Assembly: GCF_012163145.1 (NCBI RefSeq) | Contig: NZ_JAAVTX010000002.1 | Span: 186,001 to 250,000, forward strand | Direction of reading: 5' to 3' | Origin: Falsiroseomonas frigidaquae | GTDB taxonomy: Bacteria; Pseudomonadota; Alphaproteobacteria; Acetobacterales; Acetobacteraceae | Length of the DNA: 64,000 bases | Shown here: in pieces, positions 57,231 through 64,000 of the stretch | How positions within the stretch are numbered: the first letter of the stretch is position 1 | How the letters are laid out: each line of letters opens with the position of its first letter | Notes under the pieces: model-generated | What the model was told of the DNA's origin: nothing | The model's input: only the letters and a program-made list of their open reading frames with translations | The model's database searches: none | Made by a program: the position numbers and the translations under genes

Positions 57231-58241
57231 ATGCAGATCGTCGTGTTCAGCGCCAAGCCCTATGATCGGCAGTTCCTCGATGCCGCCAACGCGGCCGCCG
57301 GGTCGCCGCACCGCATCACCTATCTGGAGGCGCGCCTGTCACCGGAAACCGCGCCACTGGCGGCAGGGGCGCAGGCGGTCTGCGCCTTCGTCAATGACCA
57401 GGCCGATGCCGCGGTGCTGGAGCAATTCGCCCGCGGCGGCGTGAAGATCCTGGCGCTGCGTTCCGCCGGCTTCAACAATGTGGACCTGGTGGCGGCGCAG
57501 CGGCTCGGCATCACCGTGGCGCGGGTGCCGGCCTATTCGCCGGAATCGGTGGCGGAGCACACGGTGGCGATGATGCTGTCGCTGAACCGCCGCATCCACC
57601 GGGCCTATCACCGGGTGCGGGAGGGTAATTTCGCGCTCGATGGGCTGCTCGGCTTCGACATGTTCGGCCGCACCGCAGGCATCATCGGCACCGGGCGCAT
57701 CGGCCTGGCGGTGGCGCGCATTCTTGCCGGCTTCGGCTGCCGGCTGCTGGCCTACGACCCCTACCCCGCCGCGGAAGGCGCCGCGCTGGGGCTGGAATAT
57801 GTCGGCGTGGAGGATCTGCTGGCGCGGTCGGACATCATCACGCTGCATTGCCCGCTGACGCCGGCGACGCATCATCTGATCGACGCCGCGGCGATCGCGC
57901 GCATGCGGCGCGGCGCCATGCTGGTGAACACCAGCCGCGGCGCCATCGTCGATACACGCGCCGTCATCGCCGGGTTGAAATCCGGCGCCATCGGCCTGCT
58001 TGGCCTGGATGTGTATGAGGAGGAAGGCGACCTGTTCTTCGAGGATCTGTCCGGTCAGATGCTGCAGGACGACATCTTCGCCCGGCTGCTGACCTTCCCC
58101 AACGTGCTGGTCACCGCGCACCAGGCCTTCTTCACGCATGAGGCGCTGACCGCGATCGCGGAGACCACCATCGGCAACATCAGTGCCTTCGCCGAAACCG
58201 GCAGGGCGTTGCACGCCGTCTCGACCGAGAAGCTGGCCTGA
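57231..58241 (+). CDS. ldhA: D-lactate dehydrogenase (fermentative)
   Basis: 336 residues, close to E. coli LdhA throughout ([20 protein letters not shown]-like, [22 protein letters not shown]). NAD site GTGRIG at 153-158; catalytic R236 (NTSRGAIVD), E265 ([13 protein letters not shown]) and H297 ([12 protein letters not shown]). It reduces pyruvate to D-lactate with NADH. GGAGA precedes the ATG. In operon with the stress protein gene under the FNR-type box. Confidence 0.93.
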
Positions 58242-58247
58242 GCGGTC

Positions 58248-59003
58248 TTAGACCTTGGCCGCGCTGCGCCGTGCGTCCTCGATCCAGGCCTCGACATTGA
58301 GCAGCCGGCTGATGTCGCCGAGCGCGTGGCGCAGCGCGGCGGGGTCGGCGGTCGCCAGATCCTCGAAGCGCGCATAGCCGACCATCCGCAGCCGGGCGAG
58401 CATCCCCGGGCCGAGCGCGGTGACGGGGGGCGATGGGGCCGGGTCTTCGGCGTCGGGCGCCACGGAATCTGGCGCGATCGGAGCGGAGAGCTCCGCCTCG
58501 GGCTGCATCTCCGCTTCGGCCAGTACTTCCGGCTCGGAATCCTGCTCCGTCGGCACGGCGTCATGGGTCGCCGCGGCCTCGTCCTGCACCAGCGCCAGCG
58601 TCACCACCGGCTCCGCCTCGGCGGGAAGATCGCTGACCAGCGCGGAGAAAATGCTCTCCGCCACGTCAGTCGCGAGCGTCGTTGCCTCCGCTTCCGGCAA
58701 CGGCGAATCGGCGCTGGCCGCCTGCGGGACGGGCACCGGTTCCGGCATTGGTTCCGGTATTGGTTCCGGCACGGTCTCTGGCGCCATCTCGGGCACCGGC
58801 TCCGCCACGTTCGCCGCGTGGCGCACCGGTCGCCAACGTGGCGGACGGGTGGCGGCGTCCAGCGATGCCTGCCGGCGTTCCGCCTGCAATGCTGCCCGGC
58901 CGGATTGCAGGGCGGCACGCAGGGCGGTGCGCTGGCTGCCGCGCGCGGCACGCGAAGCGGCAACCAGGATTTCGCCCGGCGGCGGCGTGGGCGCGTCACT
59001 CAT
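58248..59003 (-). CDS. Acidic Pro-Glu-repeat protein with C-terminal helix-hairpin-helix
   Basis: 251 residues; not recognised as a named family. Residues 1-60 are arginine/alanine-rich, 65-100 a PEP/PEPM/PEPI repeat, 100-195 acidic and probably disordered. The last 55 residues (ALGPGMLARLRMVGYARFEDLATADPAALRHAL) look like a helix-hairpin-helix of the kind that binds DNA or proteins. It lies 88 bases behind gvpA on the same strand, after the hairpin. Connection to gas vesicles is unproven. Confidence 0.65.
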   Translation of the reverse strand: MSDAPTPPPGEILVAASRAARGSQRTALRAALQSGRAALQAERRQASLDAATRPPRWRPVRHAANVAEPVPEMAPETVPEPIPEPMPEPVPVPQAASADSPLPEAEATTLATDVAESIFSALVSDLPAEAEPVVTLALVQDEAAATHDAVPTEQDSEPEVLAEAEMQPEAELSAPIAPDSVAPDAEDPAPSPPVTALGPGMLARLRMVGYARFEDLATADPAALRHALGDISRLLNVEAWIEDARRSAAKV

Positions 59004-59048
59004 GCGGGCATCCTTGCGCCAGGGGGTGGGGCGGCAAAGGGGACGGGA

Positions 59049-59078
59049 CGGCCGGACGGGTGCATTCCCGTCCGGCCG
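59049..59078 (-). terminator. Strong hairpin directly after gvpA
   Basis: CGGCCGGACGGG and CCCGTCCGGCCG form a perfect 12-bp stem around a six-base loop, beginning 13 bases behind the gvpA stop. There is no T-run, so it may act as a partial terminator or 3' RNA stabiliser between gvpA and the next gene. Confidence 0.7.
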
Positions 59079-59091
59079 GTCAGCTAGCCAG

Positions 59092-59310
59092 TCAGGCCGC
59101 CGCGAGCGACGGGTCGCTGGTCAGGCCAACCGCTTCCGCATACTTCAGATAGGTCTCGACGGAGGCGATGACCGCGCGGATCTCGATGGCGATCAGCTCG
59201 ATGCCGACCAGCGAGATGCGGACGAAGGCATCGACAACGATGCCCTTGTCGAGGATGCGGTCGATGACCTCCGCGAGGGAGGAAGACGCCAGGCTCTTGT
59301 TGATGTTCAT
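59092..59310 (-). CDS. gvpA: Gas vesicle structural protein GvpA
   Basis: 72 residues. [56 protein letters not shown] (read in parts) is the GvpA shell protein almost without change: alpha-beta-beta-alpha, no cysteine, short acidic tail. AGGAGGGCG precedes the ATG. GvpA monomers build the hollow gas vesicle wall. None of gvpF/L, gvpN, gvpG, gvpK or gvpO is in the window, so this copy is isolated. It lies 163 bases behind the PYP-cluster genes on the same strand. Confidence 0.93.
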
Positions 59311-59473
59311 GGGCTCACGCCCTCCTGTCTTGCGGTGTCATCCCGAGCTCATCCCGGAACGGCGGAGACCATGCCGGCAGCGGGAAATCCTTCGCCGCCT
59401 GATGCCGTGCTGGCCGCCTCGATTGTCGCCGGAAGCACTTAAGGAAGCCCTTCCGGAACGAAGCATTCCTGCG
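59311..59473 (-). promoter_or_regulatory. gvpA upstream region
   Basis: The 163 bases between the last PYP-cluster gene and gvpA contain an inverted repeat, CCGGAAG (59429-59435) with CTTCCGG (59450-59456), with GGAAG-CC-CTTCC overlapping it. This could end the upstream transcript or regulate gvpA. I see no convincing -10/-35 pair. Confidence 0.35.
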
Positions 59474-59971
59474 TCAGCCGGCGCTGAGCTGATGCAGGAA
59501 GGACGCCAGCACCGCGCGGTACTGCGATTCCGCCTCCGCGATGCGGTATTTCAGCGCGGCCGCATGCACCATCAGCTCGGCCGGGGCCAGGCTGGGGTCG
59601 GCCGGATCGAAATCCGCCTGCACGTCGCCGCGCGCGTCATAGCCCTCGAAGAACTGCAACGCTTCCTCCACGCTGTCGGCGACGCAGACATGGAACTGGT
59701 CCTTGGCGCCCTGCGCCTTGCTGAACACGCGGATATCGGCGACGAAATGGCCGTCTTCCGTCTGGTACAGGTTCAGCTCATGCCACAGCGGCGTGCCGAC
59801 GCGGTAGCCGTTGCCGAAGCCGACATGCCGGCCCGAGAAGGAAACCGGCCGGCTTCCCGACTTCCGCAGCATGAAGGTGGAAGTCGCGCCACGCACCGGC
59901 GTGCGCGCCTCCGCCGCCATGGCCAGCGGTGGACGTTCGCTGAGCTGTTCGAGCGCGTTGACAACGTTCAT
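59474..59971 (-). CDS. PYP-locus small protein, paralogue 1
   Basis: 165 residues; family unnamed. From the ATG at 59971 (AAGGAG seven bases upstream). Shares with the proteins at 59968-60447 and 60889-61392 the order SGSRPVSFSGRH, then PLWHELNLYQTEDGHFVADIRVFSK, then EEALQFFEGYDARGDV and a C-terminal helix ending YRAVLASFLHQL. No signal, membrane span or catalytic motif. It overlaps the preceding gene as ATGA and is the last gene of the pyp transcript before gvpA. Confidence 0.78.
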   Translation of the reverse strand: MNVVNALEQLSERPPLAMAAEARTPVRGATSTFMLRKSGSRPVSFSGRHVGFGNGYRVGTPLWHELNLYQTEDGHFVADIRVFSKAQGAKDQFHVCVADSVEEALQFFEGYDARGDVQADFDPADPSLAPAELMVHAAALKYRIAEAESQYRAVLASFLHQLSAG

Positions 59972-60447
59972 CGGAGATCTCCTTGGGGGTTGCGATGGCC
60001 GAAGCAGGTGGAAAGCACCTCGCGCCAGGATTGCCGCAGGCGTTGCGCGCAGGCCGCCGCCGCCTGGTGGCGTGCCGGCTCCGCCAGCCCCTCCGCCGCC
60101 GCGTACAGCGCCTCGACAGGCAGGTCGTGCAGCGGGTCGTGCGCGTGCAGGAAGGCGAGCGCCACGTCCGGCCCGTCGCACGCCTCGGCATAGTCGCGCG
60201 ACACGGATCGATCCTCCCGCAGCGCGTGGCGGATGGCGATGACGAGATGGCGCGTGACCGATTCATGCACCGTCACATCGCTCCACACCGGAAGCGTCGG
60301 CTCCCGCGCCGAGACCTGCAGCAGCAGGCGGCCGTGGAAGCCGAGCGGCCGGCGGCCGTGCCGGGGCAGCGACAGGAAGGCCGGCTGTTCCGCCTGGAGC
60401 GAGCCCAGGCCGGGCGCCAGGGGCAAGGTGACCGCCTGCTGCATCAT
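59968..60447 (-). CDS. PYP-locus small protein, paralogue 2 (divergent)
   Basis: 159 residues. The same layout as its neighbours but further diverged: HGRRPLGFHGRLLL, LPVWSDVTVHES, HLVIAIRHA, VALAFLHAHDPLHDL and a C-terminal helix (LRQSWREVLSTCF). The stop overlaps the next paralogue's start; its own start is 18 bases after pyp, behind AGGA. Probably a cytoplasmic partner of PYP or of the other paralogues; function unknown. Confidence 0.72.
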   Translation of the reverse strand: MMQQAVTLPLAPGLGSLQAEQPAFLSLPRHGRRPLGFHGRLLLQVSAREPTLPVWSDVTVHESVTRHLVIAIRHALREDRSVSRDYAEACDGPDVALAFLHAHDPLHDLPVEALYAAAEGLAEPARHQAAAACAQRLRQSWREVLSTCFGHRNPQGDLR

Positions 60448-60465
60448 AGCCGCGTCCTGACGCGA

Positions 60466-60840
60466 TCAGAGCCGCTTGATGAAGATCCAGATGCCCTCGT
60501 CGATCGAGGTGGACTTCATGTGCACGCGGACCTTGGCCGGGCTCATCTTGTAGTCGAAGGCGTATTCGAACATCGTGTTCAGGCTTCCCTGCGACACGCC
60601 CTGCTGGAAGCGCCCCTGGAACTGGTGGCCCTTGGTGCAGGGCGCCACGTCGTTGAAGAAGTTCTTGCCGATGACCTCGCCCGCCGGGCGGGACGACAGC
60701 GCGCTTTCCTGCGCGTTGTACTTCATCACCCGCCCGATGCGGTCCACCAGGATGGCGCCGAAGGGCAGGCGGTCGAGCCGCGTCGGGTCCTGCGAGACCA
60801 GGTTCTCGACATGGTCGGCGCCGAATTTGATGAGTTCCAT
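60466..60840 (-). CDS. pyp: Photoactive yellow protein
   Basis: 124 residues, full length for PYP (125 in Halorhodospira). The chromophore cysteine is C68 in FFNDVAPCT; Y41 and E45 (KYNAQES) match Tyr42 and Glu46 that hold the p-coumarate phenolate; R51 matches Arg52; position 49 is Ser where Halorhodospira has Thr50. LNTMFEYAFDYKMSPAKVRVHMK completes the PAS fold, with M99 at the Met100 position that speeds recovery. It is a cytoplasmic blue-light sensor. AGGA precedes the ATG. Confidence 0.95.
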   Translation of the reverse strand: MELIKFGADHVENLVSQDPTRLDRLPFGAILVDRIGRVMKYNAQESALSSRPAGEVIGKNFFNDVAPCTKGHQFQGRFQQGVSQGSLNTMFEYAFDYKMSPAKVRVHMKSTSIDEGIWIFIKRL

Positions 60841-60888
60841 GCTTGGCTTTCCTGTTCGATAGGACTGGGTCTGGTCGCCGCGCCTGGT

Positions 60889-61392
60889 TCAGGCCGGCAG
60901 GGCGAAGCGGTACAGCAGCTCGCCGAGCAGGCCGCGCCACTGGCGCGTCACGGCATCCGCCTTCTGGCGCAGCGCGGCCGCCATCAGCGCGATGTCCACC
61001 GTGCTGATGCGGCGATCGGAAGCGTCGAATTCCGGGGCGAGATCCGCGGTCGGATCGAATTGTTCCAGCCAGGACAGCGCATCCTCCATGGTCTTGAAGA
61101 TCTCTGCGTGGTGGATGTCGGTCTCGCCGCTGGATTTTTTCAGCATCCGCACGGCGAGCGCGCAGTCGCCATCCGCGGTGCGGTACAGCGCCACCTCGTG
61201 CCAGGCCGGAATGCTGGGGGCCCAGGATGTCGCCTCGGCCAGCATCACCCCGCGCATCCGCAGCGGCTTGCCGCCGGAGACGCGCAGCGTGATGTCCGAA
61301 GGCTCCACCGGCTGCGGCAGCGGCGCGGCCGGCAGGGGGGACGACGCGCTGACTCCCGGCAGGCCGGGCAGGCTGAAGGCAACCGAGACCAT
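60889..61392 (-). CDS. PYP-locus small protein, paralogue 3
   Basis: 167 residues from the ATG at 61392 (GGGAGA six bases upstream). A proline/serine-rich N-terminus (SLPGLPGVSASSPLPAAPLPQP) precedes the shared domain: SGGKPLRMRGV, IPAWHEVALYRTADGDCALAVRMLKK, ALSWLEQFDPTADL and a helix ending WRGLLGELLYRFAL. First gene of the pyp transcript, 48 bases before pyp. Not recognised as a named family. Confidence 0.78.
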   Translation of the reverse strand: MVSVAFSLPGLPGVSASSPLPAAPLPQPVEPSDITLRVSGGKPLRMRGVMLAEATSWAPSIPAWHEVALYRTADGDCALAVRMLKKSSGETDIHHAEIFKTMEDALSWLEQFDPTADLAPEFDASDRRISTVDIALMAAALRQKADAVTRQWRGLLGELLYRFALPA

Positions 61393-61644
61393 CCTGATCT
61401 CCCTGGCGCCGCGCCATCGGCAAGCCGAGGCGACGAGCGCAGTGGCTCGAACGAAACCCGCCCTGATCGTGGACGAGACATGCAGAGGCCCGCGCAGTGC
61501 GGTGCCACGAATGTGATCCTGCGCCGGCCGGGTAAAGCGGCGGTAAAGAGCCGACATGATTCCCGCACCGCGCGGAACGGCGACGCCGCAAGGATTCCTT
61601 CAGGATTTCCTGCTTCGCTCGGCTTTCCAAACGGGGAAGCCGCC
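61393..61644. promoter_or_regulatory. Divergent pyp-operon / ligase control region
   Basis: 252 bases separate the starts of the pyp transcript (minus) and the coumarate ligase (plus). Close to the ligase start AGGATTCCTTC is followed at 11 bases by AGGATTTCCTGC, an imperfect direct repeat that may bind a regulator. No clear sigma-70 promoter or palindrome is visible to me. Confidence 0.4.
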
Positions 61645-62895
61645 ATGCCGACCACGCTGCCTGTTGCTGCATTGTCAGATGCCGCGCTGCTCCGCCTGCT
61701 GCGTTCGCTGCTGCCACAGGAACTGGGCGGCGCCGGCGGCCGCGCGATCACGCCCGCCAAGGCCGCCGTGTGGCCCGCGGAGCTGTCGCTCGGCGCCGAG
61801 GGGCTGGGCCTGGACAGCCTGGAACTGGTGACCTGCGCCGCCGCGGTGAACGAGCTGTTCCGCCTGCACGAAAGCGGCGTGGAGGACTACCTGCTGGCCG
61901 AGCGCCGCCTGGACGCCTGGTGCCACATCATCCGCGCGGGCATGCAGGACGGCACCACCGGCATCACCTTCCGCACCTCCGGCAGCAGCGGTGCGCCGCG
62001 CCGCTTCACGCATGCGCACGCCGCGCTGGCGGCGGAAGCCGCGCATTGGGCCGGCATCTTCGCCGACCGTCGTCGCATCATCCAGCTCGTCCCCGCACAC
62101 CACATCTACGGCTTCCTGTTCACCATCCTGCTGCCGGAGGCGCTGGGCGTGCCGGTGGTGGATGGCCGCGCGCTGTCGCCGGGCCGCCTGGCGCGGCTGC
62201 TGCGCGGCGATGACCTGCTGGTGGGCTTCCCCGCCGGCTGGACGCCCATGCTGCGCAGCCTGGACCGGCTGCCGGACGGCATCCGCGCCACCAGCAGCAC
62301 CGCGCCCCTGCCCGCCGCCACACACCACGCGCTGCGCGAGGCCGGTGCCGCGCAGGTGGTGGAGGTGTACGGATCTTCCGAGACCGCCGGCCTCGCCGCG
62401 CGCAGCGTACCCGAGGCGCCCTTCGCCCTGCTGCCGCGCTGGCGCCCCGGCCAGGCAGGCGAGGCCGCCTCCGTCATCGAGGTCGCGACCGGCGCGGAGA
62501 TCGCCCTGCCCGATCGCTGCGAATGGCTCGGCGGCGGCACGCTGCGCCTGCTCGGCCGCAAGGACGACGCGGTGCAGGTCGGTGGCGTCAACGTCTATCC
62601 GGCACGGGTCGCGGCACGGCTGGCGGCGCATCCGCTGGTGTCGGATGCCGCTGTGCGTCTGGATGCAACGCTGCCGGAGCCGCGGCTGAAGGCTTTCGTC
62701 ACGCTGCACACGCCGCGCGAACGCGCTGGCGCGCATGCGGCGCTGGAGGCCTGGTGCCGCGAGAACCTGCCGGCCGCGGAGCGCCCGGTCAGCATCGAGC
62801 TGGGAGGCCGGCTGCCGCGCAACGCGCTGGGAAAGCTTTCAGACTGGGCATCGGCCGGGACTTCAGGCGCGGCTTCGGCCGCCGCGCCTCACTGA
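61645..62895 (+). CDS. pcl: p-Coumarate:CoA ligase, PYP-activation type
   Basis: 416 residues, shorter than plant 4-coumarate ligases and like the PYP-specific group. P-loop TFRTSGSSGAPRRF at 108-121, YGSSETAG at 242-249, LLGRKDDAVQVGGVNVYP and a C-terminal NALGKL with the adenylation lysine. It makes p-coumaroyl-CoA, from which the chromophore is attached to PYP Cys68. GGGGAAG precedes the ATG. The tyrosine ammonia-lyase that supplies p-coumarate is not in the window. Residues 55-62 (GLDSLELV) resemble a carrier-protein Ser motif. Confidence 0.9.
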   Translation: MPTTLPVAALSDAALLRLLRSLLPQELGGAGGRAITPAKAAVWPAELSLGAEGLGLDSLELVTCAAAVNELFRLHESGVEDYLLAERRLDAWCHIIRAGMQDGTTGITFRTSGSSGAPRRFTHAHAALAAEAAHWAGIFADRRRIIQLVPAHHIYGFLFTILLPEALGVPVVDGRALSPGRLARLLRGDDLLVGFPAGWTPMLRSLDRLPDGIRATSSTAPLPAATHHALREAGAAQVVEVYGSSETAGLAARSVPEAPFALLPRWRPGQAGEAASVIEVATGAEIALPDRCEWLGGGTLRLLGRKDDAVQVGGVNVYPARVAARLAAHPLVSDAAVRLDATLPEPRLKAFVTLHTPRERAGAHAALEAWCRENLPAAERPVSIELGGRLPRNALGKLSDWASAGTSGAASAAAPH

Positions 62896-62908: not shown

Positions 62909-64000
62909 TCACGCCGCCTTCTGCCGCAGCAGCAGGCGGCGGATCGCGGCGGCCAGTTCCGCCTCCTCCGTCGCCTGGGCGAAGATGAAGACCAGCCGCG
63001 CCTCGCTATCCACGCCGGCCATCTTCACGCGCTGTGCCGGCAGCCCCGGCAGGTCCAGCATCGCTTCCGACCCGGCCGGCATCAGCGGCGCCGGCGTGAA
63101 GCGCGCGCCGTGGTCGGAGATGTCCTTCAGTCGCCCCTCCAGCGTCTCGCCATTCAGGATCAGCCGCGCCGGCAGATCCACCGCATGGCGCGGCTCCCGC
63201 CGCCGATCGGTTTCGCTCAGCCCGCTGCGGGCCAGGCCGATGATGCGGCTCTGCAGTGTCGACAGGCAGGCGGAGACCTGGCCGGAGGCGCCGTGGATCA
63301 TGCCGACGGACATGCGGTTGTCGTCGATTTCCTGCACCGCGGCGGCAACGCGGCGGCTGGCGCCGGTGGCGGCTTCGGAGGCGTCGCGCACCGCGCTCGC
63401 CACTTCCTCCACCACGCTCGACTGGTCCTGCAGCATCTCGGCGATGCGGCCGGTGATGGTATCCAGCGCACCCATGCCGGCATGCACGCTGTCCATCGCA
63501 TGCAGGGCATTGGCCGCGCCGGCCTGCACGCTGGCCAACCGTTCCGCAATCTCGGTGGAGGCCTTGGCGGTCTGCGCCGCCAGCGTCTTCACCTCGCCGG
63601 CGACCACGGCGAAGCCTTTGCCGGCCTCCCCCGCCCGCGCCGCCTCGATCGTCGCGTTCAGCGCCAGCAGGTTGGTCTGCCGCGCGATCAGGCCGATCAT
63701 TCGCGTCACGTCGTCGATCTCATCCGCCTGGCGCCGCAGATCATCGAAGGTGGTGCGCGCGGCGTCGGAGGCGGTGACCACCTGGCGCGTCGTCTGCGCA
63801 GCCAGCGCCATCTGGCTGCTGCTCTCGCGGATCGCCTCGACGATGCGCGCGGTGCCGGCCGCCGCCTCGTCCGACCCGGCGGCGGAGCGCTCGGTCTCGC
63901 CCTGCGCCGCGGCGGCCTCGTGCGAGGCACGCACGGTCGCGCGTTCCAGCGTATCCGCAATCTCCTCCAGCTCGCGCGCCGAGGTGTTGATCTCATCCAC
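62909..64000 (-). CDS. Methyl-accepting chemotaxis protein with PilZ domain, C-terminal part
   Basis: 363 codons; the 5' end lies beyond base 64000. The MCP signalling domain includes [35 protein letters not shown] (in parts). After it, [38 protein letters not shown] has the R-x3-R and D-x-S-x2-G pattern of PilZ, which binds c-di-GMP. The sensory half is not visible. It is convergent with the coumarate ligase, 13 bases away, and could link light or c-di-GMP to motility. Confidence 0.88.

Follow-up and report, generated by a model that had tools for sequence, protein, structure and literature searches.

The gene for the photoactive yellow protein (PYP), pyp, lies near gas-vesicle clusters in Rhodobacter capsulatus SB1003 and Loktanella sp. 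SE-62 (Kyndt et al. 2004, cited in a passage of PMC3646047), and in Bradyrhizobium ORS278 a bacteriophytochrome that binds phycocyanobilin is encoded on the same island as gas-vesicle genes (Jaubert et al. 2007, cited in a passage of PMC3899966). We have analyzed a stretch of 64,000 nucleotides from Falsiroseomonas frigidaquae, an Acetobacteraceae (the window; it lies on contig G000:C12, G000 being our handle for this genome), in which pyp is likewise close to a gas-vesicle cluster. Here it is accompanied by three small genes, P1, P2 and P3, and the passage of PMC3646047 on the two earlier cases names no such trio of small paralogues. Our analysis indicates that the three are homologues linked to gas-vesicle genes, and we give a probability of roughly 0.47 to the reading that they would be accessory gas-vesicle proteins in a mixed complex at which a photosensor without output domain docks.

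The occurrence of PYP beside gas-vesicle genes and of a phytochrome in a gas-vesicle island is already in print; for the P1-P3 family no description was found in the open-licence literature on gas vesicles with PYP, phytochromes or Acetobacteraceae. A 2025 survey of PYP homologues (PMC12826048) analyzed 113 pyp operons and regards the PYP signal transduction chain as an important gap in what is known; the terms gas vesicle and gvp are absent from its main text. Gas vesicles go unmentioned in the available portion of PMC9664959, and that of PMC11089705 deals, on vesicles, with Microcystis alone. What we describe recurs as a small set of genes linking PYP or phytochromes without output domain to gvpA, and it supplies three or four candidate partners for these sensors. 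Such a trio near gas-vesicle genes, with varied light sensors, suggests a connection between light and buoyancy that has so far not been studied. If the proposal is right, photosensors would act directly on buoyancy, and the family could be turned into a tool for controlling gas vesicles with light.

The locus in the window consists of the following features (lengths in amino acids, aa):

60889..61392, minus strand: P1, first family member, 167 aa (genome search with P3, group profiles; tree group P1)
60466..60840, minus strand: pyp, photoactive yellow protein, 124 aa (NCBIfam TIGR02373, 162 bits, cutoff 143.05)
59968..60447, minus strand: P2, second family member, 159 aa (genome search with P3, group profiles, structure model)
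59474..59971, minus strand: P3, third family member, 165 aa (group profiles, structure model)
59968..59971, minus strand: ATGA overlap of the P2 stop and the P3 start (sequence)
59092..59310, minus strand: gvpA, main gas-vesicle shell protein, 72 aa (PF00741, 61.2 bits at G000:C12:245164-245280, window 59164-59280)
58248..59003, minus strand: X, 251 aa, rich in Pro and Glu, after gvpA, which we take to occupy the position held by gvpC in other clusters

The gene order on the minus strand is P1, pyp, P2, P3, gvpA, X, and the remaining gas-vesicle cluster begins just beyond the window end, at about G000:C12:250.7k. In that part PF00741, PF06386 and GvpO were recognised by profile match, and GvpN, GvpJ, GvpG, GvpS and GvpK were named by reading their sequences. 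A first-pass annotation, made from the letters of the window, had placed three open reading frames (ORFs) at the coordinates listed for P1-P3, on one strand and with pyp between P1 and P2, all of which is borne out; its "two with ATGA overlap" holds for the P2/P3 pair.

P1, P2 and P3 are real homologues and form one family. With P3 as query over the whole genome of the window, P1 was found at an E value of 6.7e-19 and P2 at 3.8e-4, the other two matches having 0.25 and 0.52. The annotation had called the three paralogues and named a profile alignment as possible refutation. This alignment, carried out with hhalign on group profiles, shows that they are related, with E values from 1.4e-15 (P1-P2) through 5.9e-16 (P2-P3) to 2.2e-27 (P1-P3). 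By the same method a fourth type of copy, D (3 rows), matched P3 at 4.2e-18, and a distant copy in genome G458 matched it at 2.2e-10. We searched Pfam and NCBIfam, whose models include those of Gvp proteins, with P1-P3 and obtained 0 families at E up to 1; the best Pfam value for 18 family members was 0.027, with unrelated names, and PHROG and PDB-sequence searches gave no meaningful match. The annotation's view that the function is undescribed agrees with this absence of any family model or description. On plasmids P3 gave one weak match (E 0.08, an E. coli plasmid) and P1 none, and no plasmid relative was accepted.

We have scanned by profile 398 genomes of the Acetobacteraceae and 385 genomes of the class, scoring the best 9 or fewer first-look candidates of each genome, and the counts are lower bounds. 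The protein family is present in at least 17 of the 398 Acetobacteraceae genomes, with at least 52 matches (three copies in 13 genomes, four in 3 and one in 1). G730 and L006 were counted as one organism, with 100% matches to L006 proteins. Among the matches listed for the class, a convincing one was found, besides the genome of the window, in G458 alone, which belongs to another taxonomic family, and G458 was the only one of 9 genomes of that taxonomic family to carry a copy. Its copy lies about 2.5 kb upstream of pyp, which is followed by pcl and gvpA. Weak profile matches in G480, G558, G011 and G444 were dropped as chance. A peptide-pattern scan of genome contigs with P3 gave one relative, L006, a metagenome-assembled genome of Acetobacteraceae from a pond; the profile searches covered the class only.

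The neighbourhoods of the family copies were examined in all 17 Acetobacteraceae genomes over 4.6-24 kb, taking as ORFs the longest open frames, some of which exceed the true genes. gvpA is within the examined stretch in 15 of the 17 and, in 13 of those 15, downstream on the strand of the family; in G124 and G601 it is on the other strand, beyond pcl (pcl assignments rest on pcl queries from L006 and G124 and on Pfam domains). Two genomes differ: in G044 the trio is followed by gvpN to gvpK, with neither gvpA nor pcl in the 24 kb examined, and in G597 the copies are on a 6.2 kb contig with part of a large cluster gene and, by reading, transposase-like ORFs after the third copy. X-like sequence was found near gvpA in 14 of the 17 genomes. 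When a subset of 200 Acetobacteraceae genomes was scanned with P3, 5 were positive, all of them among the 9 with GvpL/F (Fisher p = 5e-8). Since gvpA or the gvp cluster is the commonest neighbour, the family is primarily associated with gas vesicles, and with PYP in some genomes only. Its members are linked to gas-vesicle genes and are, in this operational sense, accessory proteins, and a general gas-vesicle role of the family is probable.

The pyp gene was present in the stretch in 9 of the 17 genomes (G000, G730, G711, G734, G594, G601, G124, G592 and G044) and, in all of these except G592, that is in 8, it lies between P1 and P2. The other 8 of the 17 have the family with no pyp in the stretch. 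The trio and gvpA are present in G195, in whose whole genome no PYP was found; the same negative was obtained for the whole genome of G178 (89% complete). G767 and G779 also have the trio and gvpA, with neither pyp nor phytochrome in the 19 kb examined. The pyp reading frame of G044 is broken by a stop at codon 41 (L019:9227-9598), an intact copy being present in its relative G124. Counted by genome along the lines proposed in the annotation, with gvpA in the stretch in 15 of 17 and pyp in 9 of 17, the family is not specific for PYP. That the trio exists for PYP is not supported, in view of G195, G767, G779 and three genomes with phytochrome genes and no pyp in the stretch. The genome of the window has a second PYP gene (G000:C18:193354-193722; L097:7337-7726), on a contig different from those of the family and gvp matches.

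The three genomes with phytochromes are G178, G659 and G703, in whose examined stretches pyp was not found. They share a run composed of a phytochrome of 605-625 aa, STAS, heme oxygenase, a second phytochrome of 478-507 aa, a short coiled-coil-like protein, the fourth family copy D and a bilin reductase (L138:3411-9515; L021:6203-12531; L141:2988-8672). STAS and bilin reductase were confirmed by Pfam in G178 and G659 and heme oxygenase in G659, the remaining members being assigned by BLAST. All six phytochromes of the runs have the Pfam domains PAS_2, GAF and PHY, and the Pfam search gave no kinase domain and no recognised output domain in any of them. In G178 the run continues on one strand through three family copies into gvpA; in G703 it is on a contig other than that of its three further copies, and this contig ends within the reductase gene. 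The run looks like a self-contained bilin photosensor unit. As on the ORS278 island, phytochrome, bilin synthesis and gas vesicles are found together in G659 and G178. Unlike in the ORS278 account, as given in the passage of PMC3899966 (where the family is unmentioned), the run phytochromes of G178, G659 and G703 lack a recognised output domain and are accompanied by a family copy. The light sensor next to the family is exchanged between genomes.

The copies themselves are conserved together. Between G044 and G124 the nonsynonymous (dN) and synonymous (dS) values were 0.006 and 0.126 for P1, 0 and 0.043 for P2, and 0.016 and 0.044 for P3. In 13 of the 16 loci compared (G718, which has a single copy, was omitted) the second copy runs 4 bp into the third, as ATGA in 8 and as GTGA in 5 (G044, G124, G601, G597 and G178), some of the GTGA loci having other possible starts nearby; of the other three loci, two show an overlap of 23 bp and the third a gap of 11 bp. 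An overlap of 4 bp suggests matched production of the two proteins and hence a complex. The annotation had also thought of a complex, which is likely from the linked copies and the overlap, though not as one that exists for PYP. In a tree of 53 rows (labels on 18 rows, long branches flagged, G730 omitted), there is for each of P1, P2, P3 and D a branch with all its labelled rows on one side. The P1 sequence of G734 sits on a long branch, and nearby calls have runs of the letter X in the translation.

We propose the following mechanism. P1-P3, encoded upstream of gvpA and on its strand in 13 of the 17 genomes, would be accessory gas-vesicle proteins whose C-terminal helices join them into a hetero-oligomeric complex. 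This complex would be placed on or near the growing GvpA shell and would receive whichever sensor the genome encodes, PYP or phytochromes. PYP is a single domain and the phytochromes of the runs end soon after PHY, and therefore both would most simply signal through contact with a further protein. We prefer the family as this partner, since each kind of sensor run contains a copy; X, other gvp proteins and an MCP-PilZ receptor are further candidates. That the family is the docking point for the light sensor of the genome seems rather unlikely, and our estimate was lowered slightly because chemoreceptor genes were confirmed beside some sensors. A more specific form, a light-switchable collar into which PYP (blue light) or the paired bilin phytochromes plug, changing vesicle growth or collapse by contact and without transcription, we consider unlikely.

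The strongest rival explanation is that P1-P3 are assembly or shell factors without light signalling, the sensors adjoining them through a common lifestyle and signalling elsewhere, for example through an MCP-PilZ chemoreceptor. Two further genes lie to the right of the locus:

61645..62895, plus strand: pcl-like coenzyme A (CoA) ligase gene, divergent from P1, its product presumably with a role in chromophore activation (Pfam AMP-binding 2e-13, AMP-binding_C 1.3e-6; 55% to the pcl-like gene of G124)
62909-64000, minus strand: MCP-PilZ chemoreceptor-type gene, beside pcl and reaching the window end (MCP and PilZ domains)

Of the 17 genomes, 3 gave a match to an MCP-PilZ gene, each time adjacent to sensor genes: in the window it is next to pcl, and in G659 and G703 it flanks the phytochrome run on its other side (L138:1562-3061; L141:1160-2791). 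The intact trio and gvpA of G195, G767 and G779 also agree with factors that work without light. However, pyp is inside the trio in 8 of the 17 genomes and the fourth copy is inside the phytochrome run in three. Chance neighbourhood is not expected to give this pattern. We regard this explanation as quite possible, at clearly less than even odds.

Several observations weigh against docking of sensors on a conserved P1-P3 complex. No pyp or phytochrome was found in the examined stretches of 5 of the 17 genomes (G195, G767, G779, G718 and G597), and docking therefore cannot be the sole role of the family. The MCP-PilZ chemoreceptor is a possible alternative outlet for the sensors, and a further phytochrome of G178, beyond gvpA, does carry HisKA and HATPase. 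In G592 a tandem pair of pyp genes occupies the position of P1 (L136:4726-5786), and a distant family copy is found elsewhere. G044 does not cleanly show the family outliving PYP, because gvpA and pcl are also missing there. X and other gvp genes are shared neighbours too, not the family alone, and ten genomes with GvpL/F have no convincing family member (G076, G167, G011, G005, G444, G539, G314, G417, G504 and G505). As to the complex, G718 retains one copy, and the third copies of G178, G659, G703 and G597 fall outside the P3 clade. Finally, P1-P3 change faster than pyp and gvpA. Between the window and L006 the identities were 47-59% for P1-P3, P2 being the least conserved of the trio, compared with 88% for pyp and 85% for gvpA. 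Between G044 and G124 the nonsynonymous (dN) and synonymous (dS) values were 0.006 and 0.126 for P1, 0 and 0.043 for P2, and 0.016 and 0.044 for P3.

The predicted fold bears on a further explanation, in which P1-P3 would be nucleic-acid-binding regulators of gvp expression. AlphaFold2 models of P3 and P2 (predicted local distance difference test, pLDDT, 84 and 82) share one topology, in which five strands are followed by a short helix and then a long C-terminal one; the two models are not independent, because both were built from the same 6 rows in a different order. PUR-alpha and WGR domains also have an antiparallel sheet followed by a helix. The structural likeness to them is weak and of low significance, there is no sequence match, and the family is mostly acidic, with a negative net charge in 18 of 20 members, zero in G195_2 and +2 in G178_a. 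We do not take the likeness to mean nucleic-acid binding, and this explanation is improbable. The top Foldseek match of both models was a phage coat protein (P3 with E 0.009 and template modelling, TM, scores of 0.25/0.28; P2 with E 0.2 and 0.23/0.25), a weak match that was not taken as homology.

The weakest explanation is that of the annotation, dedicated PYP partners reading the dark and light states: it has on its side the window and 7 further Acetobacteraceae genomes with pyp between P1 and P2, but it is already contradicted as a general rule by the 8 of 17 genomes with no pyp in the stretch and by G195, the second PYP of the window genome is away from its three family members, and we consider it very improbable.

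Nor does the family resemble GvpO or, judged by the models of P2 and P3, GvpC. GvpO is a small protein of the same cluster, encoded separately in the genome of the window (PF05800, 1.3e-20), but its profile has no similarity to P3 (hhalign E 0.61, 1 column). In other clusters the GvpC gene adjoins gvpA. In the portion available of PMC9501494, which treats the roles of the known Gvp proteins, GvpC is described as alpha-helical repeats, whereas the models of P2 and P3 have a five-stranded sheet, and these two do not qualify as GvpC.

As for the regulation of the locus, a promoter scan of 58900-61800 gave no sigma-70-type site, the same region contained 3 terminator-like sites, where shuffled sequences averaged 1.5, and an Rfam scan of 58000-62000 gave no match. 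By reading, X has an Arg-rich N-terminal helix and a Pro/Glu-rich middle (copies at window 58248-59003, L006:10967-11914 and L135:7387-8145). X homologues have a helix-hairpin-helix-like C-terminus just below the Pfam cutoff, a match that the copy of the window lacks.

Other proteins recur in these clusters. One of 229-238 aa is encoded directly before gvpN in several of them (L023:696-1385; L020:9861-10577), its copy in the genome of the window having no Pfam or NCBIfam match. A coiled-coil-like protein of 700-940 aa, with no convincing Pfam match, ends the gas-vesicle run and directly precedes P1 in several genomes (L023:9189-11282; L006:4377-6773; L138:12411-14960). G076 and G444, whose gas-vesicle clusters are without the family, encode near gvpA a protein of 276-298 aa with an apolipoprotein-like match below cutoff (L092:5709-6539; L093:8886-9782). 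In G718 the single family copy, gvpA and X are a few kb from ParA/ParB-like genes (by reading), as on a plasmid (L142:5065-10849). In G195, as judged by eye, genes like those to the left of the gas-vesicle island of the window and a 1387-aa gene at the right enclose a lone GvpL/F-like gene (L095:7659-8444), the gas-vesicle genes of this genome being on other contigs.
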